Shown here piece by piece: positions 1 through 15,705 of a DNA stretch of 21,066 bases (within the stretch, counting starts at the first letter, position 1; each line of letters opens with the position of its first letter). The translations under genes and the position numbers were made by a program. The DNA comes from a virus, in IMG/VR virus record IMGVR_UViG_3300030098_005981, positions 1 through 21,066 of that record, one strand, 5' to 3'. The notes beneath the pieces were generated by a model that was given only the letters and a program-made list of their open reading frames with translations, was not told the origin of the DNA and made no database searches.

Positions 1-687
1 TTGAATATGAACCAATCCCTTCCAATAGTTTGGTAAGAATATTTCCTTTCCTCTTCTTAATCTACCTCTAAAGTAAACTCCAACTTCTGGTCCCTCAATA
101 CATGCATAACGAAGTCTATTGCCTTCCCCTTTAGTAGGGTGTTGCATATCAAATGGTTTTGGTGAAGCATCTGCAGCAGCAAATCTAGCAGCAAGTCTTC
201 CTTTATTACCACCATCTATATCACCAGTAACATATAAGTCTCCTTCAATATAACAACTATTAACAGTTCCACCTCCTGTCACATATAAGGCATTATCAGT
301 AGCAGGAGTACCTAATATTTGTGAATTTCCTACCTGAGTTACAGTCCAAGGAAAAAGAAGTGGATTTCCTACTTGAGTTGTATTTCCAGTTATATTAAGA
401 GCCCAAGGAGTTCCAGCATCACCCTCCAACCTTGTATTACCCTTTACATGAACTGAACGACTGGCAGGAGTACAATCTTCATCTTCATTCTTAGTCCTTG
501 CTACCATTAATGTAGCAACATTTTCTTCAAAACCTCCTACTTCTTGATTAGGAGCACCAAGAACAACTGGACCTTCCATATGAGCAGATCCATTAATTTT
601 TACATCTCCTTCTTTAATCGCAGGAACATATCCTGTTCCTACTCTTAACTGTCCTCCAACAGTTACATCGTCAAATGTATAAGACAT
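1..687 (-). CDS. Fibre-like virion protein, 3' end cut by window edge
   Basis: This reading frame starts at ATG 685-687 and stays open for 229 codons to the left edge, so its C-terminus is missing. A strong ribosome-binding site, AGGAGGT at 693-699, lies in the last codons of the preceding gene, whose stop is only 2 nt away; this fixes the start. Residues 1-160 carry recurring [V/I/L]-x-G steps (VGGQLRVG, INGS, VKGN, ITGN, VTGG, VTGD), typical of beta-helical or fibrous phage proteins. Residues 178-210 hold the motif PFDMQHPTK followed by RLRYACIEGPEVGVYFRGRL. I recognise this block from structural and tail-fibre-like proteins of T4-like cyanophages. A distal tail role is inferred from the motif and from the neighbouring baseplate genes. 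It could equally be a baseplate decoration protein. Confidence 0.75.
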   Translation of the reverse strand, partial: MSYTFDDVTVGGQLRVGTGYVPAIKEGDVKINGSAHMEGPVVLGAPNQEVGGFEENVATLMVARTKNEDEDCTPASRSVHVKGNTRLEGDAGTPWALNITGNTTQVGNPLLFPWTVTQVGNSQILGTPATDNALYVTGGGTVNSCYIEGDLYVTGDIDGGNKGRLAARFAAADASPKPFDMQHPTKGEGNRLRYACIEGPEVGVYFRGRLRRGKEIFLPNYWKGLVHIQ

Positions 688-689
688 TT

Positions 690-1376
690 TTAACCTCCTG
701 AGTCTCCAGATGCTGAACTTTGAACTACATTATTTTTATTTACCACTGGTTGTCCATTAGTTTTAGAATTTTTTACAGCACAAGCATCAGTGACACCTTT
801 AATTAACGACCCATATATTGTCAAACAGGTATTAGCAGCTATATCCATAATACCTGTACTGGTAATTTTTGTCAATACCTTAGAGTCAAAAATTATCTTC
901 TTGGTTTCATGTATAGTGAAAGTTTCTGTAGCAGTACATTTAATATGTCCTTTAGAACCACCTTCACCCACAGCAATCAACTCTATGTCAGTTCCTTGCA
1001 ATCTAATCTTACCATTTGTAGCAGTTATACAAATGTTTCCATTAATAGCATTAATAGCAATAGTGTCTTGAGGTTCAGTATTATCCTCTCCTGCTAGAAC
1101 TTGAAAATTACCAGGACTTATTGAGGATGTCCATCCCTTTCTCTGGCCATCAACATCTAAAAATAAACTATGACGACCATCAGGAGTATCAAGCATTACA
1201 CCTGCAGTAACATCAGCCTTTTTATGAATATGACCAAACTTAATTGATCCTTTATCAGTGCCATATTTTACAGCACTATAATTTTGTTTTGAGGTAATAG
1301 TAGGATTAGATTCCTTTCCTATTTGCTCTCTACCTGGAAGTCTAGAAAGACCTTGATTACGTGCTGAGCCTGACAT
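690..1376 (-). CDS. Beta-helix-like virion protein, candidate needle or tail protein (228 aa)
   Basis: A 228-residue protein with a Ser/Gly-rich C-terminus and no signal peptide or membrane segment. Residues about 100-195 are a run of short alternating beta-type strands (for example GNICITATNGKIRLQG, then GHIKCTATETFTI and KITSTGIMDIAANTCLTIYG). This resembles the triple-stranded beta-helix of T4 gp5 C-terminal needles and related spikes. It lies downstream of the gp5-type hub gene (with the giant gene between), and that hub protein lacks such a domain. A separately encoded needle or spike is therefore an attractive inference, but not proven. The start is 5 nt after the stop of the giant gene, with no clear Shine-Dalgarno, so translational coupling is likely. 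Alternatives are a fibre adaptor or a baseplate decoration protein. Confidence 0.65.
   Translation of the reverse strand: MSGSARNQGLSRLPGREQIGKESNPTITSKQNYSAVKYGTDKGSIKFGHIHKKADVTAGVMLDTPDGRHSLFLDVDGQRKGWTSSISPGNFQVLAGEDNTEPQDTIAINAINGNICITATNGKIRLQGTDIELIAVGEGGSKGHIKCTATETFTIHETKKIIFDSKVLTKITSTGIMDIAANTCLTIYGSLIKGVTDACAVKNSKTNGQPVVNKNNVVQSSASGDSGG
693..699 (-). promoter_or_regulatory. Strong Shine-Dalgarno for the fibre-like gene
   Basis: AGGAGGT lies 5 nt before the ATG at 687, inside the 3' end of the upstream gene. It is the best ribosome-binding site seen in the window and decides the start of the left-edge gene, suggesting high and coupled translation. Confidence 0.75.
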
Positions 1377-1381
1377 AATTA

Positions 1382-4300
1382 TTAAATGAGATTGTTGGGA
1401 GTACCAGGAATGTTAAGTCTTGGATCATTGCTATTAATATCAGTACCCTGTCTCTGAATTGCAGATGGAGGTGTAGTAACTGTAGCATCGATACTTTCCT
1501 GTAGTGTATCATAAATCTGAACCAATTTGCCAGGAGTTTCATAATATCCAGCATAACGAATACCATCTTTATAGAAGACAGCACCATAGTAAGGTTTACC
1601 CTCATAAAATCCTGTGCGTTTCAATCCTACTAAATCAGTTACTTGAATTAATTGTTCAGGTCTAGGAATACCAATAGGATCTCTAACTATTTTAAATTTA
1701 GGTACAAATTGAGCACCAATTCCTGTAGGTACTTTAGGATAAACCGATCTAACATTAATTTCAGGCCATTCAGTAAATCCACTAAGTTTTTTCACAACGG
1801 TACTAGCCGTTTTCTCTTCAGGTAGAGGGGGACGTTCTCCAGGTGGGGGAGGTGGTGGATCTGTTATAATGCGTTCTGGAGGTAAAATGGGTGGTGGGGG
1901 ATATATTACTCGTTCTATTTGACCAAAAGGACCAAACTCAGGTTCAAAACATTCTTCTTCACCAGTAACAGTATTCTTAATACATACAATATCTCCTGGC
2001 CCATAATTTATTCCACCAGTACCAGTTGGAATAATTTGATCTAATTCTAAATTGACAGGATATGAAGGTGGTGGATCTCCAGTATCAGTAGGTGGTGTCC
2101 ATCCATTACCAGGATCATATATAACCACATCAGTAACAATACCAACTCCAGATATTTGCTTTGGACATGGAGGTGGTATAAGAGAAGCAGATATTCCCAT
2201 AGGATTATCAGTCCAAGGTTTAGCAACTGCTGTTCCTACTTTAGTCTTCTTAGTGATTTTAATTGCAACAACTGCAGGGTTTTGACTAAACGGTGCTTGG
2301 AAATCTAAATTAGTTAAAATTACCTCTATTTTATGTTTTCCTCTTGTAGCTTGGAACATATGAACCTGCATACCATCTTGAACATAATGACCAGCTTTGC
2401 ATATCTCATGTCCATCAAGTTTAACAATTACTGAATCATCTGCTGCTGCTTGTATATCATAAGTTCCTCTCTCAGGAAAATCAACATTATCCCAAGTAAA
2501 AGTCCATGTCTTACCATTAAAATTAGCTATATATTCTTCATCAGTTTTCCAAGTAGGAGTAATAAAAGGACCTAGAGGACCACTCGTGTAAGTGCTTATT
2601 GGAGGACCAGAATAAGAAACTCCATCTTTTACTGATCCACTACTCAATCCTCCACCTAATATAGTCTCAACTGTATCTTTAGAAGGGACCGTAAACTTAC
2701 AGAACCTTCCTTGCATATCATAAAACTTTCCATCAGAGACAGAACATATAATATCATCAAAAGAGCTGTCAGTATAATCTTCCATCTGAACCACTTGTTC
2801 TCCTTTGTTTCTTAATTTGATATTTGAATTATTATTTTGATTTTCAGATGCATTTGGTGGATATATGTAAACATCTTTTGTTACAGTACCACTATAACCC
2901 GATCTAGTCCAAGTTTTATCACCAACAGAAAATGAATCAATAGCAACATTAGGTGGATGATCCTTCCAACTCATTGTTATAGTTGTTCTAACTCTTTCTG
3001 CTGAAACACCTGCTGTAACTTTAAATCCCTTACCATCATTAGTAAATTTAACCGTACCACCAACTGTTTTAACAATTGCAATTGTAGCATTAGTATCACT
3101 ACCATGATCATCTTTCAATTTAACAGTTGTTCCATTATTAGTTACATTTATAGGATTATTACGAGGATGTAAACCCTTATATACAACAGGAACATTACTA
3201 CTTTTAGCTTTTTGACTATTACTTGTAAATTCAACATCATAAACTTTACCAACCTCTACATTTACAGTCTTAGTATCAGTAAAATCCATAGATTCTCCAT
3301 ACGCCTTTCCAATAGAATATAACCCCTTTATATCAATATTTGCACCATATAAAGATGCTGAAGAAGATTTAATAATAACATCTACATTTGTAGCTCCCTT
3401 AGTAACTTTTTTAGTTGAAGTTTGTTTTTCAGACCAATCTGCGGTACTAAAAATCTTTTTATCAATCCAAGACCAATTCTGTTTCTTATCATTACTTACT
3501 TCAACTCTTATTTGATGTTGACCTGCTTCTAAGAATTTTTTACCCATAACAGGAGATGGTGAATCATATAAACTAATTCTTGGTTTTGTATTTGGTCCAA
3601 TAACTTCTTGATTATCAATAAAAATTTTACCATTATAATCCACACTAGCCTTCACTCCATAAAATCCCTTATAAGGAACATCAACTGTCCAAGTGTTTGA
3701 ATATGAAACTCCAGCACCATCACTATTATCAGTTCCTAAAGGAGGAATAGGAGAAATAGCATAACGATTCATAAATTTAGCCCATCTAGAGTTTCTAACT
3801 GGATACCAAGAATGGTCAATATTCTTAACATCTCTAGTAGTCCACATAGGATTATTAGGACATCTACCTTCTTGCAATTGAGGTGGTTCTCTAAAATAAT
3901 TTTTATCAGGAAAAGGAGCATCAATTATCATAGCGATACCTAGTGGATTTTGATTCCAAGACTTAGCAGAAATAACTTCTACATGATTAACAACAAAAGC
4001 AGTCTTAACATCCACAGCAAGAGCCATAGGATTTCCCTTTGCCAATGGCTTACCTGGAATCTGTTCTAATTCGGCTTTTAAACTATAAGTGCCATGTCTA
4101 AAATACATAACCTCAAATGATTTTCCTGTTGCAGTAGAACCATCTCCCCTAATTTTAAATCCATCTTTTCTTATAACAATATCTTCCCTTCCAGGATGAC
4201 TAAATGTAAGAACTACATTATCATCAACCATTATTTCAACAGAGTAATTTCCATCTTCGGGAAATTGAAGATTACTCCAATTAATTTCATGAGTTCCTGC

Positions 4301-7300
4301 ATAATCCTCATTAGAAGCATTTGGATAATCAGGATATCCCAATACATTTTCACTAACCTTCTCAATCATATTAATTGGAGTAACCCCAGTAATCTTTAAA
4401 TTACCATTCTCATCATATCCACCAGTAATATCATCATCATAACCAATAGTTGTTTTATCAACAGTTATTATTGAACCAGCACCACTGCTAGCTCCAATAG
4501 TTTTGACAAGATATTTTTGACCTGCAGTAAATTCACCACTACCTTTTTCGTTAGCATATCTTCTATTAGGATCTCTTCTTAAGATAATATCACCATCATC
4601 TGCTTTTATTTTAATCTCAGTTAATGCTAAAGAAGATATTCCTGGTCTATCATTTACATTCAACTCAAAGAAAACTTTCACTTTTCCAGTTCCAGTTACT
4701 TTCATATAATTTTTACCATCCTCCTTCAAAAACTTAACACTAGCTTTTGATTCTTTAACAAGATCGTAAGTAACTTTTTTTTCTACTTTACTAACAGGAG
4801 TAGGATCGAATGGAAGAACACCAAATTTATTTAAAAAACTAGCATCTTTACCTGCACCAGGATTTATCTTCCACAATTGTCTATTTGCTTTTTGAATCCA
4901 ATCAACAGTATTAAAAACAGTAGTAACACCATCAGTTCTTGTAGAAGGTGGAGGATCAGATGGACGATCAAGTATGTATTTACAAGTGCTACCATTTATA
5001 CCATAAAATCTTCCTTGAGAAACAGAGCATACAAGATCATCCCAAGACTCATCAGTCCAGTCTTCCATCATTAAAACTTTCTCACCCTTTGTCTTCAACT
5101 GCATACGAGAGTTACTACTTCCACCTTTAGTTGGTAAATTTATCGTATGTGTCTCACTACCGTCCATAGACATCGTACGACCTGGTGGTTTAGGTGCAGG
5201 TATAGAAGTCCATCCTTTATCACCCATTCTCTCTTCATCTTCCCATGTAGTAGGCAACCACTTCCCATACCAATCTTTAACTTCCCATATTTTCTTCTCA
5301 AAATCATATCTATCTGCAGTGTTTGCAAGAGCCCAACTTTTCCGTGGTGTTATTCCTGGTGTTATTATATCATTTTCATTAAATCCAGATACTCCTTGAT
5401 CACCACGAGTAACATATGTGTAACGACTTACTGTTGTTCCTGGTGAAAATGTCCAAGTTGTAGATCCTATCTTAACTGTATTAACAACTGAAGATTTAGC
5501 TTCTGTATTATTCCAAGATAAAGTTAGAGTTACATTTCCTTCTCCTTTAATGTAGAGTTTAACATCTTCATTACTAAATGTATTATCATTATTTCTACTC
5601 TCTCCTTCACCAATAAAAGTAGCCTTACCACTAGTAATAGCAAATGTTGTGGTAATATCTTCTCCACTTGAATTTGTACCACCTCGCACTAATATCTGTG
5701 TCTTATTAATAATCGTTAGTTCTCCATCTGGATTAAGTCCAGTAATTTGAAGTGGTTTCTTAATTATTGTTGTGGGAATAGTTATTTGACCACCACTCCT
5801 AACTTTTACAGGATAAACTCTTCCATACTCAACTTTTCTTTCAAAATTTTCTTTTATATCCTTACCCTCACCATATTCTTTTGCTGCATCAATATCCAGA
5901 TCTGGAATCTCAATTCCATTTGCAAAAAGACTAGCAGTAGCAACATTAAATTTTACTTTACTATCTTTGGCAGATACTTCTCTTACATTTTCAACAACCT
6001 TCTTCATCTCCTTATGGACAAAATTCTCAATATCTACTCTAATTTTATGAGTTCCTGCAGGTATAAATTTTTTAATTACTGTAGGTTTAGATAAAGTATG
6101 ACCTTCTGTAATAGCAGATCCAAGTTCAATTTTTGGACCTATTACTTTACTATCAAGAGAAAGAACTGCTTCATTATCAGCCTGAACTCTAAAAACATAA
6201 TCACCATCCCAAGGAAAATCCTCTTCCCACTCAAATGTATATGGTTTAGCTGCCATATCACTTCCTTTCACATTAGATGATGGAATAGGTGATATTGCAA
6301 ATTTATTCATAAAATTATTTTTATCATACTCAAAACACTGTCCACCTACTGCAGTCTTTGGAGGATATACAGGTTTTCCTTCTATCTCAACCTTTCTCCA
6401 CTCAGGTTGCTGCATCATTCCTTCTTTAATCTTAGAAAGACTCCAACCCTGCTCTTGTAATTTTTTCCAATAGTTGAAACCTTCTGGTTCAGCTTCTCTT
6501 CCAAATAATTCTAGATAAAGATTTCTAATAGGATCATTTTTAACTGGATTTGAACCCCATGCCCAATGAAATACATCATACTTTGTTCTGGTGGTTGCTT
6601 CAGGAGAAACTACTCTAAGGGGTGGATGCTGTCTAGTTGTCCACCATTCACTAATTCTTTTATTTTGCGTATCCCATTTAGTTCCACCACCAGTTTTTAT
6701 AGATGCTAAAAGTCTTTGATAATTATCAATTCTTTTAGCCATTGGATCTCTTGATGATCCAATATACATTCCTGGATCCCAATCACCAATTACTTTTCCA
6801 TTAGGACCATATAACTTTCCAAAACCCACACCTTCTAATGGAGGGATACATTCATCTAAAACATATTCTTCAAAATCATTTTCAGAATCATATTCCTCTA
6901 TAAGGTAATCAGTTCCACCCACTCCAGTCTTAACAAGTGCCAAAGCAACAACACCTGATCCAACTCCACGATCATCTCTAATATCAACAATGGGAGCATA
7001 CTGATATCCAAATCCACCATGAAGAACGTCCACAGCCATTAATGAACCATCAGCACCCACTACAGGATTAGCTTGAACTCCTACACCACCTCCACCATAA
7101 AAATGGACTCGTGTACTATCACGTTCCATTGCTTTACCAGTAAGATCATAAATGAAAGAATCATCAAATTGAGTGCTACCACCTACAGCAGGAGCAGGAA
7201 GTCCTAACGAATCATCAATACTCCTTCCAGTATTACCCTCTCCATTTAACCCAACAATACCTCCACAACTACCATCTGCTCCAGCATTAATTTTGGGGAG

Positions 7301-7510
7301 CATATCCTCTGGTTGCAATTTATTAACTTCATTTATGTTTAAATATTGAACCTTTTCCCTATTTCTAAAAATAAATTGAGTTCCTGGATTTAATTTGGCG
7401 TACTGATTCGCATCATACAATCCAACATTATCTACAAATCCTCTATCGGTTGATATATAACCGACTCGAATATCACATTTAGTTGCTGGTCCAAAAAGCT
7501 CAAACGTCAT
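1382..7510 (-). CDS. Giant modular virion protein with DUF4214 and repeated PA14-like units (2042 aa)
   Basis: This is probably a distal tail or baseplate-associated adhesin. Residues 1-200 form an N-terminal region with a GGFGYQYAP motif. Residues 325-372 match DUF4214 (LYLELFGREAEPEGFNYW, then a helix ending in PEW). Four PA14-like beta units carry the FP-x-x-G-x-Y start and a later G-x-H/Y-x-I/L-x-V/A-E strand, at about 428-495, 1077-1150, 1276-1340 and 1670-1735. FMNKFAISPIP (400-410) and FMNRYAISPIP (1246-1256) begin two long repeated blocks, and each block contains a C-S-V-S-x-G-x-F-Y segment (about 803-850 and 1564-1610). A proline-rich linker (about 1869-1897) precedes a compact C-terminal region. 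PA14 units in other proteins often bind sugars, so host-surface glycan binding is a reasonable inference. A late-promoter-like GATAAATA lies 21 nt upstream. Confidence 0.85.
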   Translation of the reverse strand: MTFELFGPATKCDIRVGYISTDRGFVDNVGLYDANQYAKLNPGTQFIFRNREKVQYLNINEVNKLQPEDMLPKINAGADGSCGGIVGLNGEGNTGRSIDDSLGLPAPAVGGSTQFDDSFIYDLTGKAMERDSTRVHFYGGGGVGVQANPVVGADGSLMAVDVLHGGFGYQYAPIVDIRDDRGVGSGVVALALVKTGVGGTDYLIEEYDSENDFEEYVLDECIPPLEGVGFGKLYGPNGKVIGDWDPGMYIGSSRDPMAKRIDNYQRLLASIKTGGGTKWDTQNKRISEWWTTRQHPPLRVVSPEATTRTKYDVFHWAWGSNPVKNDPIRNLYLELFGREAEPEGFNYWKKLQEQGWSLSKIKEGMMQQPEWRKVEIEGKPVYPPKTAVGGQCFEYDKNNFMNKFAISPIPSSNVKGSDMAAKPYTFEWEEDFPWDGDYVFRVQADNEAVLSLDSKVIGPKIELGSAITEGHTLSKPTVIKKFIPAGTHKIRVDIENFVHKEMKKVVENVREVSAKDSKVKFNVATASLFANGIEIPDLDIDAAKEYGEGKDIKENFERKVEYGRVYPVKVRSGGQITIPTTIIKKPLQITGLNPDGELTIINKTQILVRGGTNSSGEDITTTFAITSGKATFIGEGESRNNDNTFSNEDVKLYIKGEGNVTLTLSWNNTEAKSSVVNTVKIGSTTWTFSPGTTVSRYTYVTRGDQGVSGFNENDIITPGITPRKSWALANTADRYDFEKKIWEVKDWYGKWLPTTWEDEERMGDKGWTSIPAPKPPGRTMSMDGSETHTINLPTKGGSSNSRMQLKTKGEKVLMMEDWTDESWDDLVCSVSQGRFYGINGSTCKYILDRPSDPPPSTRTDGVTTVFNTVDWIQKANRQLWKINPGAGKDASFLNKFGVLPFDPTPVSKVEKKVTYDLVKESKASVKFLKEDGKNYMKVTGTGKVKVFFELNVNDRPGISSLALTEIKIKADDGDIILRRDPNRRYANEKGSGEFTAGQKYLVKTIGASSGAGSIITVDKTTIGYDDDITGGYDENGNLKITGVTPINMIEKVSENVLGYPDYPNASNEDYAGTHEINWSNLQFPEDGNYSVEIMVDDNVVLTFSHPGREDIVIRKDGFKIRGDGSTATGKSFEVMYFRHGTYSLKAELEQIPGKPLAKGNPMALAVDVKTAFVVNHVEVISAKSWNQNPLGIAMIIDAPFPDKNYFREPPQLQEGRCPNNPMWTTRDVKNIDHSWYPVRNSRWAKFMNRYAISPIPPLGTDNSDGAGVSYSNTWTVDVPYKGFYGVKASVDYNGKIFIDNQEVIGPNTKPRISLYDSPSPVMGKKFLEAGQHQIRVEVSNDKKQNWSWIDKKIFSTADWSEKQTSTKKVTKGATNVDVIIKSSSASLYGANIDIKGLYSIGKAYGESMDFTDTKTVNVEVGKVYDVEFTSNSQKAKSSNVPVVYKGLHPRNNPINVTNNGTTVKLKDDHGSDTNATIAIVKTVGGTVKFTNDGKGFKVTAGVSAERVRTTITMSWKDHPPNVAIDSFSVGDKTWTRSGYSGTVTKDVYIYPPNASENQNNNSNIKLRNKGEQVVQMEDYTDSSFDDIICSVSDGKFYDMQGRFCKFTVPSKDTVETILGGGLSSGSVKDGVSYSGPPISTYTSGPLGPFITPTWKTDEEYIANFNGKTWTFTWDNVDFPERGTYDIQAAADDSVIVKLDGHEICKAGHYVQDGMQVHMFQATRGKHKIEVILTNLDFQAPFSQNPAVVAIKITKKTKVGTAVAKPWTDNPMGISASLIPPPCPKQISGVGIVTDVVIYDPGNGWTPPTDTGDPPPSYPVNLELDQIIPTGTGGINYGPGDIVCIKNTVTGEEECFEPEFGPFGQIERVIYPPPPILPPERIITDPPPPPPGERPPLPEEKTASTVVKKLSGFTEWPEINVRSVYPKVPTGIGAQFVPKFKIVRDPIGIPRPEQLIQVTDLVGLKRTGFYEGKPYYGAVFYKDGIRYAGYYETPGKLVQIYDTLQESIDATVTTPPSAIQRQGTDINSNDPRLNIPGTPNNLI

Positions 7511-7531: not shown

Positions 7532-7539
7532 TATTTATC
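7532..7539 (-). promoter_or_regulatory. Putative T4-type late promoter octamer (GATAAATA)
   Basis: GATAAATA is one base from the T4 late consensus TATAAATA and lies 21 nt upstream of the giant gene, overlapping the stop codon of the gp5-like gene. The spacing is nearly the same as for the exact octamer before gp26. One-mismatch octamers are common in AT-rich DNA, so the position carries most of the weight. Confidence 0.45.
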
Positions 7540-9436
7540 AATCAATTTCAAGAACATTTCTAAGTTCATCTCTTTCCTCATCTGATATTTCTACCGACTC
7601 AACAACACCACCATCATTTACAAGATCAACGTCTGGTGTTGCTTTAGAAGGTTCACCAAATGGAAGTTGTGGTACTCTTGGAGCTATAGAATTAATATAA
7701 TCATCACCAACTAATCCATTGTATCCATCTTTTATCCTAGAAAGATGCTTATTAGCAGAAACCTCAACTGCCTTTGCACTAGGTAATGCAGTTTGTGCTT
7801 GTGCTCCACCACCATCACAAAAAGTATAAAAATCAGAAACAGCTTTATTCGGTTTCTGTTCAAAAGGAAAAGCATTCATTTTAATATTTTCAAAATTAAG
7901 TGCAGAAGTCAAACTTCCTTTAATATTTCCCAACTTACTAAACAAAGACGACATCCCTCCCCCTATATCTGCTGTATCACCAAAAGAATCCCTTAAAAAC
8001 CTATCAATACCACCAATTAAACCATTATTAGTCTGTTCGATTAAATCTTTATTAACGGCTAAAACAGTTGATATTATATCTTCAGAAGTACACATTGGAA
8101 CTTTAGGTAAAGCTTTTGGTCTATCCTCATCATCATCTTGCCCACCTGCTGCTCTTGCTGCAAATTGTTGCTTTAAATCATCTACATTCAATACCTTTCT
8201 AATAATTCCATCTATCAATCCAGCATTACTATTTGTCATTTTATTATATGTCGATAAAAGATTTTGACTTAATCCATCTTTAACATCAAGAAAATCCATT
8301 CTTTTATAAGCAGGTAAAGCAGAAACTGCCTTAGTCATCTCCTTATTCATTGCTTTTTCAGTATATTCCATCATCTTATCCATAACAATTTTCATATACT
8401 TTGATTGTCTCTTAGAAGACTCACTAATCATCTTTTCTAAATTTGTAGTTCCTTCTGTTATTGATACCGCATCTGTATAACTTTGTAATGCATTCATCGC
8501 TTTATCAATATCCTGAACCAAATTATCCATGTCGGTCTGCATTGCTTTATTAGAAGACTCAACAATATTATCTGGTTTTAATACAACTCTTTTTACATTA
8601 CAAACATCATCTCTTTTAAGATCAGCCGCAGTCTGTATCATTGTGGCTTCACCTTCAATGGTGGCGCCAGGTTTAACAGGAGATCTTGGAGAGTCTGCCT
8701 CTTTAACTCTAGATTTTATTCCAGCTTGAACTCTTTTTCTAACTAATTCTTGGGATTCTTCTGTTCCTAATTGTTTCTTTTCTGCTTCTGCTTTTGCACT
8801 AATAATATCTGCCATTTGTGCAGGAGTTATATCCAAATTAGCAGGTAATCCAAATCTATTTAAACCAACTCCAGGTGCAGGCTTAGCTCTTTCTTGCTCT
8901 GTTATTTTATCTGTTGGTTTCTCTACTTTTTTATCAGTATCTGGTGGAATGGGTTTAGTTTGTCCAGAATAATCTATATTACCTTGTGAATACCCACTAA
9001 CACAAACAGTTTTACCTGAAGTAGTATTCGTAACCTCATCATCACCAATAGTAGTTCTTGCCTTAGTTTGGGTATTATTTCCCAGTACTCCCATAATAAC
9101 AGGTTGTTGTTGAGATTTACCGTCTAAGAAAAATCCAAAAACAATGTTACCTTGTCTGATCATTGGAGTTTGACCAGAGTTCTGTAAATATGCTCCCGCT
9201 GTTATGGGGTACATTACATTTGCCCAAGGAAGATTTTCAGACTTAATGGCAGTCTCACCCAAATCATGAAGACCAAAAATCCTTACTTTATATCTGTATC
9301 CCCATCCCTTAATAGTTTCTGGAGAAGGAAATTTACCAGGTATAATATTATCGCGCCAATAAGAGTCATCGGCGACTTGTCCAATCCACCAATAAAAATC
9401 TTGGCCTATAAATCCCTGATTAAATCCTTCTGCCAT
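7538..9436 (-). CDS. gp5: Baseplate hub protein, gp5-type OB-fold without lysozyme (632 aa)
   Basis: In T4, gp5 sits under the gp27 trimer and carries an OB-fold, a lysozyme and a needle. Here residues about 12-120 match the gp5 OB-fold: WWIGQVADD at the start, then YRYKVRIFGLH, NLPWANVMYPITAGA, and GNIVFGFFLDG leading to PVIMGVLG. After residue 160 the protein departs from T4: a charged linker, a long helical stretch (about 295-375), an acidic segment DDDEDRP, and helices up to 520. I see no lysozyme catalytic motif and no VxG needle repeats. The start follows the His-rich gene by 3 nt, and no good Shine-Dalgarno is visible. The gp27-type gene is two genes upstream, as expected for hub partners. 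The assignment is firm for the N-terminal domain; the role of the remainder is unknown. Confidence 0.82.
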   Translation of the reverse strand: MAEGFNQGFIGQDFYWWIGQVADDSYWRDNIIPGKFPSPETIKGWGYRYKVRIFGLHDLGETAIKSENLPWANVMYPITAGAYLQNSGQTPMIRQGNIVFGFFLDGKSQQQPVIMGVLGNNTQTKARTTIGDDEVTNTTSGKTVCVSGYSQGNIDYSGQTKPIPPDTDKKVEKPTDKITEQERAKPAPGVGLNRFGLPANLDITPAQMADIISAKAEAEKKQLGTEESQELVRKRVQAGIKSRVKEADSPRSPVKPGATIEGEATMIQTAADLKRDDVCNVKRVVLKPDNIVESSNKAMQTDMDNLVQDIDKAMNALQSYTDAVSITEGTTNLEKMISESSKRQSKYMKIVMDKMMEYTEKAMNKEMTKAVSALPAYKRMDFLDVKDGLSQNLLSTYNKMTNSNAGLIDGIIRKVLNVDDLKQQFAARAAGGQDDDEDRPKALPKVPMCTSEDIISTVLAVNKDLIEQTNNGLIGGIDRFLRDSFGDTADIGGGMSSLFSKLGNIKGSLTSALNFENIKMNAFPFEQKPNKAVSDFYTFCDGGGAQAQTALPSAKAVEVSANKHLSRIKDGYNGLVGDDYINSIAPRVPQLPFGEPSKATPDVDLVNDGGVVESVEISDEERDELRNVLEID

Positions 9437-9439
9437 ATT

Positions 9440-9709
9440 TTAATCGTCGTATACTCTACATTCAAATGAATCTGGATGATTATCACAATACACTTCTAAG
9501 TGCTGATCCTCATGACGTGTATGCCAATCATTTATTTTAGCACCACCAGGATTCTCTTCATTCTCTTCATGAGCATGAAAAGCATCATTGTGAAGTTTTA
9601 GATCTTCTTCACTATACTCTAACATACCATGATTGACATGCTCTTTATGATCTTTTGGATCAATATAAGACTCATGGTTTAAATCGTGTTCTGGAACTTT
9701 AGTAGTCAT
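9440..9709 (-). CDS. Small His/Asp/Glu-rich protein between the hub genes (89 aa)
   Basis: I do not know its function. The protein has 12 histidines in 89 residues (positions 8, 12, 21, 24, 27, 40, 45, 47, 63, 66, 70 and 78), very many Asp and Glu, and two cysteines (75, 84) in a C-terminal block WHTRHEDQHLEVYCDNHPDS. I have an impression that this block recurs in marine T4-like phages, but could not check. It has no signal peptide or membrane segment. It lies between the gp27-type and gp5-type hub genes. AAGGGAG gives a usable ribosome-binding site, and AATAAATA stands 21 nt upstream. The composition would suit metal binding, perhaps at the hub or spike, where other phages hold an iron ion; that is speculation. 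A regulatory or assembly helper is equally possible. Confidence 0.8.
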   Translation of the reverse strand: MTTKVPEHDLNHESYIDPKDHKEHVNHGMLEYSEEDLKLHNDAFHAHEENEENPGGAKINDWHTRHEDQHLEVYCDNHPDSFECRVYDD

Positions 9710-11293: not shown

Positions 11294-13405
11294 TTAACCA
11301 CCTTCATAAAGGTTGGAATATGGATCTTCTCCTCCTCCACCTCCACCCAATACTAATGGAACAAAAGATTCTTTTTGTTCTTGATTTTGATTTGATTTAG
11401 AAGGAGAAGGAGCAACAACAACTACTTCTTCAGCACCATCTTCATAGGATGCATATCTTTCAATATCTTTTTGGAAATTTTTCTTTCTTGCATTAGAAGT
11501 TGGAACAATATTATTACCATTACCTTTTACTTGACCATATTGTTGTAACTTTTCTCTCTGTGATAAGTTGTGGAAATTAGTATATTCTTCCACAGAAACA
11601 TCCTTTCCATTAATTACTCCCACTCCTCTTTCAAAATCAAAGTGAGCATTAACCTTTGAAGTAGAACTTATAGATGTATTAGTTTTATCTGATGGAATAA
11701 TTTTCTTCTTACTTTGAACATCTCCTAATTTATTAACACCACCAAATAAATTTCCCTTACGATCAAGGTCTGTTAAATCACCCAACATAAAATCAATAGA
11801 TCCCTTACCAATCCTTTGTCCTAATGAATCACCTCTCTTATCAAAATCAGTAAGTCCCATTGTAGCCCAATCGGTAAGACCAGCAACAACTCTTCCCAAC
11901 CCTTTTGGTTTTTTATCTTTTTCCCCCTTCTCAGTTATTTTTTCTATCTTATGAACTTTCTCTCCAGATGGTTTACCCTTAAGAAGATCCTGAGTTGCTA
12001 TCAAATCAGGTGTAGTTAAAAGAATACTTCCTTCTTTAATTGCAGCTTGACGACTCTTTGTTTTACCGTCCTTAGTATATCCCATAGCATCGGTTCCTTC
12101 TTTACCATAGATACTTCCAAATGCTCCTTTATCTTTAGCAAGTAATCCTAGAGAAAATGCATTTACAATTTCTCTAAACTGTTCTCGAATTCTTGCATCA
12201 AACTTAGCAAGATTTTCTCTTTGCTTTGCTTTACCTGCATCATCAAGAAAAGGATATCTTACCAACTCTATCAAGTATCTAAAAGGTGCTCCAATAATAT
12301 CTAAAGTAGTACCAATAATTCCTGTAACAAAATTAAATCCTTTAATAATCTGAAGGATTCCCCAGTCTACTGCCTTTCTTGGGTCTGTCCACCACTTTTC
12401 TTTATACCTTTTAAACCATGCATCTTCTGCTTCCTGACCTTTCTTTTTAATCTGGAATGCACCTTCACCAAGACCAGATGCAAGAAGTCCAACACCTGCA
12501 ACTATACCAGCAGCTGCTCCTGCTCCTATACCTCCTGCGGTTGCTCCTGCTCCACCTGCTGCTCCTCCTGCTGCTCCACCTGCTGCTCCACCTGCTGCCG
12601 TTGCTGCTGCTCCACCTGCTCCTCCTGCAAAAACACCTGCCATTATTGCAAATCCTGTTCCAATAGCAGCTACAGCCATTACCACTTTCTTTAATGTACC
12701 CATAACAGAATCAAATGCTTGAGCAGCATTTTCACCAAATAGATTTTTTATAACACCCCTTGTCCAATCATATGCTTTATATCCCCAATCAACAGCAGTT
12801 ACCAATATATTAAGAGCAATTCCACCTAAGTAAACAACAAAATCTAAAAAACGTGCTAGACCTTTAAGCAATGGCATCAATTTAGGTAACCAATCAATCA
12901 ACCTTACAGCTAACCATCCAAAAAGAACAGTCATAAAATATCTTTTTATTTGACCCCAAAAACTTGTAACTTGTTTAGGAAGAGGTAAATTAAATCTTTT
13001 TTTATCAAGTTTAGGAGCACCCTCTATTTCTTGCTCATCCTGTTTTCTTTCATCCTTTTCTTGCTGTTTTCGTTGATTCTTTTGTTGAGCCTTTTCTGCA
13101 GCAAGAGTTCCTTTTAATAACTTATCAATTTCTAAAACTTTTTCTTTAATAACCATTAAAGAACCAGACTTAGTTTGAGTTTCTGCTTTTGTAATAGAAG
13201 TTATTGGTGAAGATACTGGGACTATGTTACTCGAACCAGACTTAACAATCGCACCTCCTTTTTCCTTATTATCACCACCACCCATTAATTTTTCAGCCTT
13301 TACCTTTCCTACTTTAGGTTTTTTCTTTCTATTTAAAAGTTTCTTAGTAGCTACCTTTTTTACACCACTCTTTAATAAGGATTTTCCTAATGCTGCCCAA
13401 GCCAT
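11294..13405 (-). CDS. Tape-measure-like tail protein 2 (703 aa)
   Basis: Residues 1-140 are basic and charged, with KKLLNRKKK (21-29) and a helical Lys/Gln/Glu-rich stretch at 100-130. Residues about 148-260 are strongly hydrophobic helices (for example FMTVLFGWLAVRLIDWLP), followed by a Gly/Ala low-complexity run at 260-300 and another hydrophobic stretch at 345-385. Residues 502-552 carry two copies of a G-x-x-D-x-x-x-x-x-L-T-D-x-D-x-x-G motif, also found in the neighbouring 766-aa protein. The C-terminus is a flexible glycine run and EDPYSNLYEGG. This pattern of charged head, hydrophobic middle and repeats fits tape-measure or tape-measure-associated proteins inside the tail tube. Its start overlaps the upstream stop by 1 nt (TAATG), indicating coupled translation. 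Which of the two proteins sets tail length cannot be told here. Confidence 0.7.
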   Translation of the reverse strand: MAWAALGKSLLKSGVKKVATKKLLNRKKKPKVGKVKAEKLMGGGDNKEKGGAIVKSGSSNIVPVSSPITSITKAETQTKSGSLMVIKEKVLEIDKLLKGTLAAEKAQQKNQRKQQEKDERKQDEQEIEGAPKLDKKRFNLPLPKQVTSFWGQIKRYFMTVLFGWLAVRLIDWLPKLMPLLKGLARFLDFVVYLGGIALNILVTAVDWGYKAYDWTRGVIKNLFGENAAQAFDSVMGTLKKVVMAVAAIGTGFAIMAGVFAGGAGGAAATAAGGAAGGAAGGAAGGAGATAGGIGAGAAAGIVAGVGLLASGLGEGAFQIKKKGQEAEDAWFKRYKEKWWTDPRKAVDWGILQIIKGFNFVTGIIGTTLDIIGAPFRYLIELVRYPFLDDAGKAKQRENLAKFDARIREQFREIVNAFSLGLLAKDKGAFGSIYGKEGTDAMGYTKDGKTKSRQAAIKEGSILLTTPDLIATQDLLKGKPSGEKVHKIEKITEKGEKDKKPKGLGRVVAGLTDWATMGLTDFDKRGDSLGQRIGKGSIDFMLGDLTDLDRKGNLFGGVNKLGDVQSKKKIIPSDKTNTSISSTSKVNAHFDFERGVGVINGKDVSVEEYTNFHNLSQREKLQQYGQVKGNGNNIVPTSNARKKNFQKDIERYASYEDGAEEVVVVAPSPSKSNQNQEQKESFVPLVLGGGGGGEDPYSNLYEGG
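12500..12640 (-). repeat. Gly/Ala-coding low-complexity tract
   Basis: A run of GCAGGTGGAGCAGC-like triplets on the minus strand encodes Gly-Gly-Ala-Ala units (residues about 256-302 of the 703-aa tail protein). The short tandem repeats could expand or contract by slippage. The long leucine-rich frame on the opposite strand is only the mirror of this tract. Confidence 0.75.
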
Positions 13406-15705
13406 TATACACTAATCCCCAATACTCTTATTTTATCCACCGACCTCATTGCTATAGCACTAAATGATGGAATCTTTTTATTTCCTCCTCCTGCTGGTGG
13501 AGTAGAAGGAGTAGAATCCGTCAATTGATCTTGATAAGCAACTGTCACTTTTGGTTTCTTAGAAGATGGTTCTACACCCCATTTCTTATCCTTACCACCA
13601 AACATAGGATTAAATTGGAAATTACCTTTACCCCTCTTATCAAAATCAGTAACTCCCATCGTTGCCCAATCAGTTAATCCTCCTGCCATACGACGTATAC
13701 CCCAATCCTTTGGACTTCCTTCTGGATTTTGCTTATCAAAGTCCCACATACCCATTGTAGCAAAATCCAATGCTCCACCAATACCACGTTTAATTCCCAT
13801 TCCAGATTGCTTCTCACCCCTCTTTGCTTGCTCATCAGCAGAACCCCATGCCTTATCTTTACCACCACTTATAGGATCAAATTGCAAATTACCCCTACCT
13901 CTCTTATCAAAATCAGTAAGTCCCATCGTTGCCCAATCGGTAAGACCACCCGCCATTCTACGCATACCCCAATCTTTTGGACTTCCTTTACGATTTCTCT
14001 TATCAAAGTCCCACATACCACCAGTCACAAAGTCTGCAGCACCACCAACCATACGTTTAAATCCACCACCTCGATTCCCATCAGAAACAGTAGTTTTACC
14101 TCCAAATGTTGAATAACCTTTCGTTTTAAGATTACCTTCTTTATCTGTATAAATGGCTTCTTCTGGAGTTCCACTCAATATCATTATTTTTTTCCTTACT
14201 TCATTAGCCTCAGGTGAATTATAACCATATGTAGTTATTGCATCAAACTTTGCACTCTCTAATTTTAATCTCTGCTGCGCTTTCTCAGCATTTGATTGAC
14301 TCATATTACCAGATACTACTTTACCTCCTTGCATAGTAGCACTCTCACTGTTACTAAGAACCCTTCCACCTTCATTATATCTACCCATTGTTGGTTTATT
14401 AGTTCCACCTGCAGCAGCATTCATACCTTCTAGAGTATCAAGACCAAACTTATTTACAGCACCCTTTGTCATAACAAACTCACCAGGAGTTAGCATTGCA
14501 GGAACCGTATCAGTATTGCCACTTCCAGGAACTTCTCCACCTTTATTCATTTCCTTTGGTTTTATTTCACCAAAGAACCCATACCTTTTTTCTGTTCCTG
14601 TGTCTAATTTTTGAATCTGTTCTTTTCTTTCTTGATCCGCTCCTGTTAAAAAATCACCAGCTTTCTGTAATGGACTTCTATTCTCCTGTTGCTCTTTTAT
14701 TATATTAGAAGTTTCTTCTGCCCCAACTTCTTTTACAGATTGATCAACCTTTTGATCAGTTTTATTTTTTCTAGTACTTATAATTGCTGCTGTTCCAAGT
14801 AATGCAAGGGCAGCTAGTCCCCACGGACCCATTGCTACTGCAGCTGATATAAGAGCGGGAATAACAGTTCCTACAAGAGTAGTAGCAAATCCAATCAAAG
14901 TAGATATAAATCCCGTTGCAAAACCGACCAACCCTGTTCCAAATACAAGATATGCACCCAATAAAAGTGGCCACCAATCCTTTAAAAATCTAAAAATACT
15001 TTTAATTTTATCTTGATTTGCTGGATTTCCAACCCAATCTACAAGTTTAAATAATACTCTTCCAAGAAATATTTTAGTAATAAATCCTAATATTTTACTC
15101 CAAATATCTGCGAATGGACCAAGAACTTTACCTGCTATTTTTGAAACACCTTTCCATACACCCTTTGCACCTTCTAGTAATTTTTCTTTTGATGCCCTTT
15201 TTGTCTTTTCCTTTTCTTTTCTTTGTTTCTCCGTCTTTTTCTTATTAAACTTTCTATCACTTCTTAAGGTTTCAATTATAGAATTGAGACCATCAATGAT
15301 AGGATTGAATGATTGATTATCTGAATCTTCTGTTTGTTTTTCTTCTGGTTTTAAATTATCAAGTCTCTTCTCATTTGCCAACACTCTACCACGAGTATCT
15401 CTCAAAATACGGGCTAATCTACCAGTATTACTTTCTTTACCCTTTTCACCAACATCTTTTCTATTAAGAAGTTTGCTTGTAGATACTTTCTTTTTTACTA
15501 TTTGGGATTTTGCCCTTCTATTATCTCTTACTCTTTTAACTTCTTTTTGTAGGATAGGTATTCTTCTATCACTTGGATTAGAAATTGTAAGTGAATTAGT
15601 AGCCTCCATCAATGCACGTAGATAATCCATATCACTATCCACGTCCATCAAATCAATATCAAGATCTGATAGTATTTTTAAAATTGGTGGGCTAATAACT
15701 GCCAT
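13405..15705 (-). CDS. Tape-measure-like tail protein 1 (766 aa)
   Basis: Candidate tape measure protein, which would set tail length inside the tube. The charged N-terminal third includes SKLLNRK (78-84) and a Lys/Glu helix (about 150-180). Two hydrophobic blocks follow at 205-224 and 243-310, the second long enough for several membrane-type helices. Residues 388-425 hold NKGGEVPGSGNTDTVPAML and TPGEFVMTKGAV, a block I recognise from many phage tape-measure proteins. Residues 549-710 are two tandem copies of an alternating pair of units ending in WDFDK and TDFDKRG. The gene overlaps the upstream small ORF by 14 nt and has AAGGT just before its ATG. It lies immediately downstream of gp26 and its small partner, the usual place for a tape measure after tail assembly chaperones. 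T4 gp29 (590 aa) is the nearest functional counterpart, but I see no clear residue match. Confidence 0.75.
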   Translation of the reverse strand: MAVISPPILKILSDLDIDLMDVDSDMDYLRALMEATNSLTISNPSDRRIPILQKEVKRVRDNRRAKSQIVKKKVSTSKLLNRKDVGEKGKESNTGRLARILRDTRGRVLANEKRLDNLKPEEKQTEDSDNQSFNPIIDGLNSIIETLRSDRKFNKKKTEKQRKEKEKTKRASKEKLLEGAKGVWKGVSKIAGKVLGPFADIWSKILGFITKIFLGRVLFKLVDWVGNPANQDKIKSIFRFLKDWWPLLLGAYLVFGTGLVGFATGFISTLIGFATTLVGTVIPALISAAVAMGPWGLAALALLGTAAIISTRKNKTDQKVDQSVKEVGAEETSNIIKEQQENRSPLQKAGDFLTGADQERKEQIQKLDTGTEKRYGFFGEIKPKEMNKGGEVPGSGNTDTVPAMLTPGEFVMTKGAVNKFGLDTLEGMNAAAGGTNKPTMGRYNEGGRVLSNSESATMQGGKVVSGNMSQSNAEKAQQRLKLESAKFDAITTYGYNSPEANEVRKKIMILSGTPEEAIYTDKEGNLKTKGYSTFGGKTTVSDGNRGGGFKRMVGGAADFVTGGMWDFDKRNRKGSPKDWGMRRMAGGLTDWATMGLTDFDKRGRGNLQFDPISGGKDKAWGSADEQAKRGEKQSGMGIKRGIGGALDFATMGMWDFDKQNPEGSPKDWGIRRMAGGLTDWATMGVTDFDKRGKGNFQFNPMFGGKDKKWGVEPSSKKPKVTVAYQDQLTDSTPSTPPAGGGNKKIPSFSAIAMRSVDKIRVLGISV
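13576..14061 (-). repeat. Tandem coding repeat, two copies of an A-B unit
   Basis: Four related segments encode residues 549-580 (A1), 581-621 (B1), 638-669 (A2) and 670-710 (B2) of the 766-aa protein. A units read like GGALDFATMGMWDFDK and end GSPKDWG; B units read RRMAGGLTDWATMG(L/V)TDFDKRG and end GGKDK(A/K)W. The DNA of the two copies is also clearly alike, which suggests duplication rather than chance. A further B-like copy lies at 11831-11902 in the neighbouring gene. Confidence 0.85.

Follow-up and report, generated by a model that had tools for sequence, protein, structure and literature searches.

To our knowledge, little is settled on the recognition of Prochlorococcus and Synechococcus by T4-like marine cyanophages, and a giant gene lying beside a baseplate hub gene raises the question of what its product might do at the tail. 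The stretch analysed here (the window) comprises 21,066 nucleotides, positions 1 to 21,066 of the IMG/VR virus record IMGVR_UViG_3300030098_005981. Judged by its neighbouring genes (gp5, gp26, gp48-like and others) and by database matches, the virus is a T4-like cyanomyovirus. The gene in question (1382-7510, minus strand, like all parts of it named below) is an open reading frame (ORF) of 2042 amino acids (aa) that matches the virion structural protein family phrog_32965 (E 0). The encoded protein is an orthologue of SSM2_017 from phage S-SM2, named "PA14 domain-containing protein" or virion structural protein, and of gp17 from phage Bellamy. Small plus-strand ORFs are also seen within the gene. 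An earlier note on this DNA had described a giant tail protein built by internal duplication of PA14-like and Cys-containing blocks. We find an array of four PA14-like units between two end modules, with variable cassettes in the joints of the array; the protein is of a known kind with a new architecture. A 2010 comparison of cyanomyoviruses already listed a PA14 gene as enriched in Synechococcus phages (PMC3037559), and beyond this comparison we found no literature on the protein. A profile-based scan of viral contigs gave 337 related stretches, and 80 loci were retained from these. The orthologue counts given below refer to 67 full-length proteins (1201-2269 aa), the window protein and 66 others, one of which (L011) was put in by hand, its BLAST match having ended before the C-terminus.

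The duplication is supported by a repeat signal that goes well beyond short motifs. Residues 380-1210 and 1211-1800 align with a local score of 327, compared to a mean of 49 and a maximum of 82 in 300 shuffles. The signal recurs piece by piece when profiles of the orthologue alignments are compared, for unit 1 with unit 3 (99.9% probability, E 6.6e-33), for unit 2 with unit 4 (99.3%, E 8.3e-21), for the beta domains B1 and B3 (100%, E 4.5e-51) and for the Cys segments C1 and C2 (99.3%, E 2.9e-20). Plain BLASTP of the 2042-aa protein against itself returned the self match only; the repeat emerged once the blocks were aligned separately. All four PA14-like units are mutually related, and the protein therefore has four of them, in two pairs. 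The module order N, U1, linker, U2, X, U3, U4, C is found in 67/67 orthologues, so that the copy number of four is constant and the duplication of the array predates the family. A tree of the units was tried as proof of block duplication and failed in this role. Over 89 columns of the PA14 core the best tree joins U1 with U2 (84/87, not starred), the alternatives U1+U3 and U1+U4 are not rejected (p-AU 0.37 and 0.27), and whether the pairs (1,2) and (3,4) stem from one duplication is left unsettled.

The motifs of the earlier note lie at the residues given there (FMN at 400 and 1246, FLNKFGVLPFDP at 892, CSVS at 828 and 1589, NP-x-G at 1188 and 1769). PA14-like units are indeed present in both blocks; their starts, however, seem to lie further upstream than had been stated, at WTTR near residues 289 and 1222, at FNT-x-D-W (866) and at FSTADW (1354). 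The WTTR strand region (residues 289-320; 6551-6646) probably forms the first strands of unit 1, the motif being present in 54/67 orthologues and a structural match covering model residues 276-500. The core of unit 1 (398-505; 5996-6319) begins with FMNKFAISPIP and is defined by profile evidence, as are the core and tail of unit 2 (1058-1202; 3905-4339), which contain Asp-Asp at 1096-1097, and unit 3 (1222-1345; 3476-3847), which has no insert. Unit 4 (1618-1785; 2156-2659), with Asp-Asp at 1691-1692, is found by Pfam PA14. The linker and start of unit 2 (864-904; 4799-4921), present in 67/67 orthologues, hold FLNKFGVLPFDP, which had been taken for the start of a further, partial copy. Comparison with S-SM2 identifies it instead as the start of unit 2, cut off from its core by a cassette: S-SM2 lacks this cassette (B2p), the motif is contiguous with the core there, and the unit 1 profile spans both (602-723, E 9.6e-10). 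Two single cysteines, C1217 between units 2 and 3 (3860-3862) and C1782 at the end of unit 4 (2165-2167), are invariant in 67/67 orthologues. The Cys pairs said to be kept in both copies are kept in the window, but C828/C843 persists as a pair in 20/67 and C1589/C1604 in 36/67 orthologues, which rules them out as a family-wide trait.

Duplication alone does not make the protein giant. As judged from the orthologue sequences, its size is owed mostly to optional cassettes in the joints of the array. The lengths of joints 0 to 3 range over 2-189, 15-364, 2-190 and 108-494 aa, and the core stretches vary far less; the architecture was called as the best non-overlapping profile, which is approximate for weak segments. 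Joint 0 contains DUF4214, another beta-rich insert or nothing. In the window it carries a DUF4214 region (residues ~325-392; 6335-6538) that is absent from S-SM2 and from the earlier note; the Pfam match (PF13946, 314-370) is marginally above the cut-off (23.4 against 23.2 bits), and 11/54 members match. Joint 1 contains B and C cassettes, or in one orthologue (L084) a DUF5648 domain instead; in the window these are beta cassette B copy 1 (504-705; 5396-6001), defined by the B1/B3 profile match, and Cys segment C copy 1 (798-850, with C828 and C843; 4961-5119), defined by the C1/C2 match. Joint 2 is either empty or occupied by B2p (905-1055; 4346-4798). In joint 3 there are one or two B and/or C, in the window B copy 2 (1372-1556; 2843-3397, by profile matches) and C copy 2 (1560-1612, with C1589 and C1604; 2675-2833, by Pfam and profile match). 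The Cys segment is called DUF4114-like only, since the DUF4114 profile reaches 20.8 bits, under the cut-off of 27, and for the B domain there is no Pfam match above cut-off. From the ranges of the structure matches, units 1 and 4 seem to be interrupted past the first strand, by DUF4214 and by the joint 3 cassettes respectively.

B2p looks like a circularly permuted B. It matches B in two pieces of swapped order, B1 115-196 to B2p 18-119 and B1 4-118 to B2p 42-143, and our reading of the strand order in the predicted model agrees with this. Both alignments overlap within B2p, so that the evidence for this probable permutation is good, not final. Bellamy carries two tandem B copies in joint 3, the kind of intermediate that can give rise to such a permutation. 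In locus, end modules and the four PA14-like units, SSM2_017 and Bellamy gp17 are like the window protein. They differ from it in that the permuted cassette, DUF4214 and the two Cys segments are missing in S-SM2, and in that Bellamy has a different insert in joint 0 and one B more in joint 3.

The B and C cassettes are homogenised within genes in several relatives, whereas the PA14 scaffold is not. Among 36 non-redundant proteins with B in both joint 1 and joint 3, the two B copies share on average 48.0% identity within a protein and 36.3% between proteins, a difference reached in 0/2000 permutations. The Cys segments behave alike (51.5% within vs 42.6% between proteins, 0/2000 permutations). 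The PA14 units show hardly any such difference, with 34.9% vs 33.6% (U1/U3) and 30.7% vs 30.1% (U2/U4, 310/2000 permutations). Since the own B partner ranks best in only 12/36 proteins, the exchange must be intermittent. Between B copies or between C copies of different joints, exact DNA repeats reach 75 nt (L022/L023), 69 nt (L035), 59 nt (L019) and 45 nt (L027); PA14 units have repeats of 20 nt at most, and codon-shuffled genes of 15 nt at most.

Where would such a protein act? The gene lies directly behind that of the baseplate hub protein gp5 (7538-9436, minus strand, 632 aa; Gp5_OB and phrog_33098), which is upstream in 72/73 loci, and directly before a conserved ORF of phrog_26118 (690-1376, minus strand, 228 aa), which is downstream in 58/59 loci. 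Only loci with room for the neighbour were counted, and the two exceptions arise as artefacts from the distance rule. By profile matches, the N module (residues 1-300; 6611-7510) and the C module (1786-2042; 1385-2155) are common to a stand-alone form of 405 aa, and the Gly-rich part of the N module and the C module also occur in a C-terminal extension of gp5. The 405-aa form is seen in SynMITS9220M01, where the gene at this locus (SynMITS9220M01_016) has the N and C modules and no PA14 array. In P-TIM68, B23 and P-SSM2, the C-terminal end of gp5 itself consists of the Gly-rich N part and the C module (CTa), in the same order and here fused to gp5; the P-TIM68 genome, unlike the window, has no PA14 units. 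In the window both end modules follow directly after gp5 and in order, as expected of a member of the gp5 C-terminal extension family. The name "tail protein" given earlier thus appears well supported by synteny and by the end modules shared with the hub gp5. In the window gp5 matches families named "tail lysozyme", and Pfam finds in it the OB domain only and no lysozyme domain.

The predicted fold of the units may point to carbohydrate binding. The whole protein scores 37 bits with Pfam PA14 (PF07691; cut-off 24), and sequence searches of the PDB matched 6qdi and 6m8m and found no structure of a close relative. In the predicted model of residues 864-2042 the mean predicted local distance difference test (pLDDT) is 74.7, mostly 80-95 over units 2-4, and it is 68.7 in the model of residues 1-904. 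Structurally, the models match best the sugar-binding jelly-roll domains of GH2 enzymes (Z 9.2 over 121 residues, Z 8.1 over 111 residues), and Foldseek matched 106 columns of the large model to 6m8m, the 'PA14 sugar-binding domain', with probability 1.00. The Asp-Asp of unit 4 is aligned with chain positions 136-137 of 6m8m, which are the D-cis-D Ca2+ ligands of MhPA14 (PMC6650083), and MpPA14 has D-cis-D Ca2+ ligands likewise (PMC8092209). The pair is kept in 66/67 orthologues in U2 and in 60/67 in U4, and units 2 and 4 carry the D-cis-D mark of Ca2+-dependent PA14 lectins. In this position, and probably in fold class, they resemble the PA14 lectins of RTX adhesins; the window protein differs in having four units in one chain and in a phage hub-side gene, and among the Ca2+ ligands the comparison covered the D-cis-D pair.

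Taken together, we lean, by a modest degree of belief, towards the giant protein being a glycan-binding adhesin at the hub tip with exchangeable cassettes. The array and its conservation, the variable joints, the homogenisation in relatives, the synteny and the shared end modules are observed; binding, virion position and a role in adsorption are inferred. The N and C modules would correspond to the C-terminal extension that gp5 carries in related cyanophages, which in the lineage of the window would have become a separate gene directly behind gene 5, with four jelly-roll, lectin-like PA14 units placed between its two halves. The end modules may fix the chain to the hub or the tip of the tail, so that the array would be held at the point of first cell contact. 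Glycan binding would fall to units 2 and 4, with the Asp-Asp that holds the sugar-binding Ca2+ in PA14 lectins, and units 1 and 3 may serve a structural role or have been altered. The joint cassettes (B, C, DUF4214, DUF5648) might change reach, stiffness or specificity. Recombination inside the gene would let cassettes be gained, lost, permuted and homogenised between joints, with the PA14 scaffold diverging only slowly. The further proposal, that ongoing exchange of cassettes within the gene alters receptor contact of a lectin scaffold at the hub tip and leaves the frame untouched, is a speculative one that we hold to be rather unlikely.

Several observations weigh against an adhesin at the hub tip. 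Single PA14 units score 14-24 bits and fall under the Pfam cut-off when taken alone, and unit 2 of the window is not matched alone. Units 1 and 3 lack the Asp-Asp, with Asp-Asn in 64/67 orthologues in U1 and mostly Asp-Asn in U3 (Asp-Tyr in the window). The pTM of both models is low (0.32 for 864-2042 and 0.35 for 1-904), and the domain arrangement is therefore not trusted. CTb is weakly detected, in the gp5 of P-TIM68 only (E 0.0046). Many cyanophage structural proteins contain the Gly-rich motif of the N module, which rules this motif out as a link to the hub when taken alone; therefore only the C module and the module order tie the protein specifically to the hub. The window's own gene has no internal DNA repeat of at least 18 nt linking cassettes. 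Finally, we found neither virion proteomics nor cryo-EM data on this lineage, and in the 2010 list the PA14 family stands apart from the single virion protein reported for that set (PMC3037559).

The array could instead be a structural spacer or baseplate stabiliser, its jelly rolls serving protein-protein contacts with no sugar binding and its cassettes varying by neutral length drift. The generic character of the best fold matches (sugar-binding-like jelly rolls, Z 8-9), the two units without Asp-Asp, and the existence of the 405-aa and gp5-fused forms without any array would all fit. However, the Asp-Asp of units 2 and 4 is kept at these frequencies at identities down to ~40%, and homogenisation is limited to the cassettes, and we consider a pure spacer improbable. 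Still less probable is a side fibre or a decoration of head or sheath, with the position behind gene 5 reflecting operon packing. Such a location has in its favour that phrog_32965 is filed under head and packaging and that related PA14 genes near psbA/psbD carry the RefSeq label 'major head protein', but we saw nothing in support of this label, and the invariant gene neighbourhood and the end modules shared with the gp5 C-terminus of other phages argue for the hub. The label is found on the psbA/psbD-side PA14 proteins of NC_021072, NC_015289 and NC_070964, and phrog_773 bears the same name; it looks like a propagated mislabel.

These psbA-side genes also bear on where the array came from. 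Free-standing PA14/B genes lie beside psbA/psbD in cyanophages. Those of phrog_773 (S-SSM5_215, Syn30, S-H38) have PA14-like units and a B-type beta domain as the window protein does, but they stand at another genome position, and none of the hub end modules was seen to match there. Among seven complete genomes, two (S-SM2 and Bellamy) have PA14 only at the hub, three (S-SSM5, Syn30 and S-H38) only at psbA, with one further weak match elsewhere in S-H38, and two (SynMITS9220M01 and P-TIM68) at neither place. This distribution hints at relocation, seven genomes being few. A ready-made PA14/B array from a free-standing gene may thus have been inserted whole into the hub-extension gene, a scenario that concerns origin only and is compatible with an adhesin function. 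The Syn30 gene aligns over 98% of the 603 aa of the S-SM2 array (25.6%), and the split placement and the unit tree, which leaves the pairing unresolved, would agree with import. Against it, U1 goes with U3 and U2 with U4 by the strength of the profile matches and by the tails they share, as block duplication predicts, although this may have happened in the donor. We regard import as a real possibility, somewhat short of even.

The surroundings of the gene hold further features. The two conserved ORFs past it (690-1376 and 1-687, minus strand) have a beta-repetitive look and may be further tip proteins. A GGLTDWATMGLTDFDKRG-like motif occurs in four copies in a 766-aa protein and in one copy in the adjacent 703-aa protein (13405-15705 and 11294-13405, minus strand). 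Between a tail protein gene and gp5, an 89-aa ORF (9440-9709, minus strand) corresponds to the C-terminal part of CP12 (Pfam E 4.5e-7), a regulator of the Calvin cycle, and a CP12-like ORF is present in 37/65 related loci. That CP12 occurs near gp5 in cyanophages is known already, and hot-spots near gp5 and psbA were noted in cyanomyoviruses in 2010 (PMC3037559).

For the biology of these phages, the giant gene provides a concrete tail-hub candidate for host recognition, in which units 2 and 4 can be named for sugar-binding tests. Its relatives form a natural series that differs mainly in cassettes, by which a link between cassettes and host range becomes testable. The family also shows clearly how repeats can be homogenised in inserts only, with the scaffold kept. 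It has a probable circular permutation and, next to it, a relative with the copies in tandem. The hub extension itself is seen in three states, namely fused, detached, and detached with an array. A fixed scaffold with swapped joint blocks suggests a quickly adaptable device for contact with the host surface.

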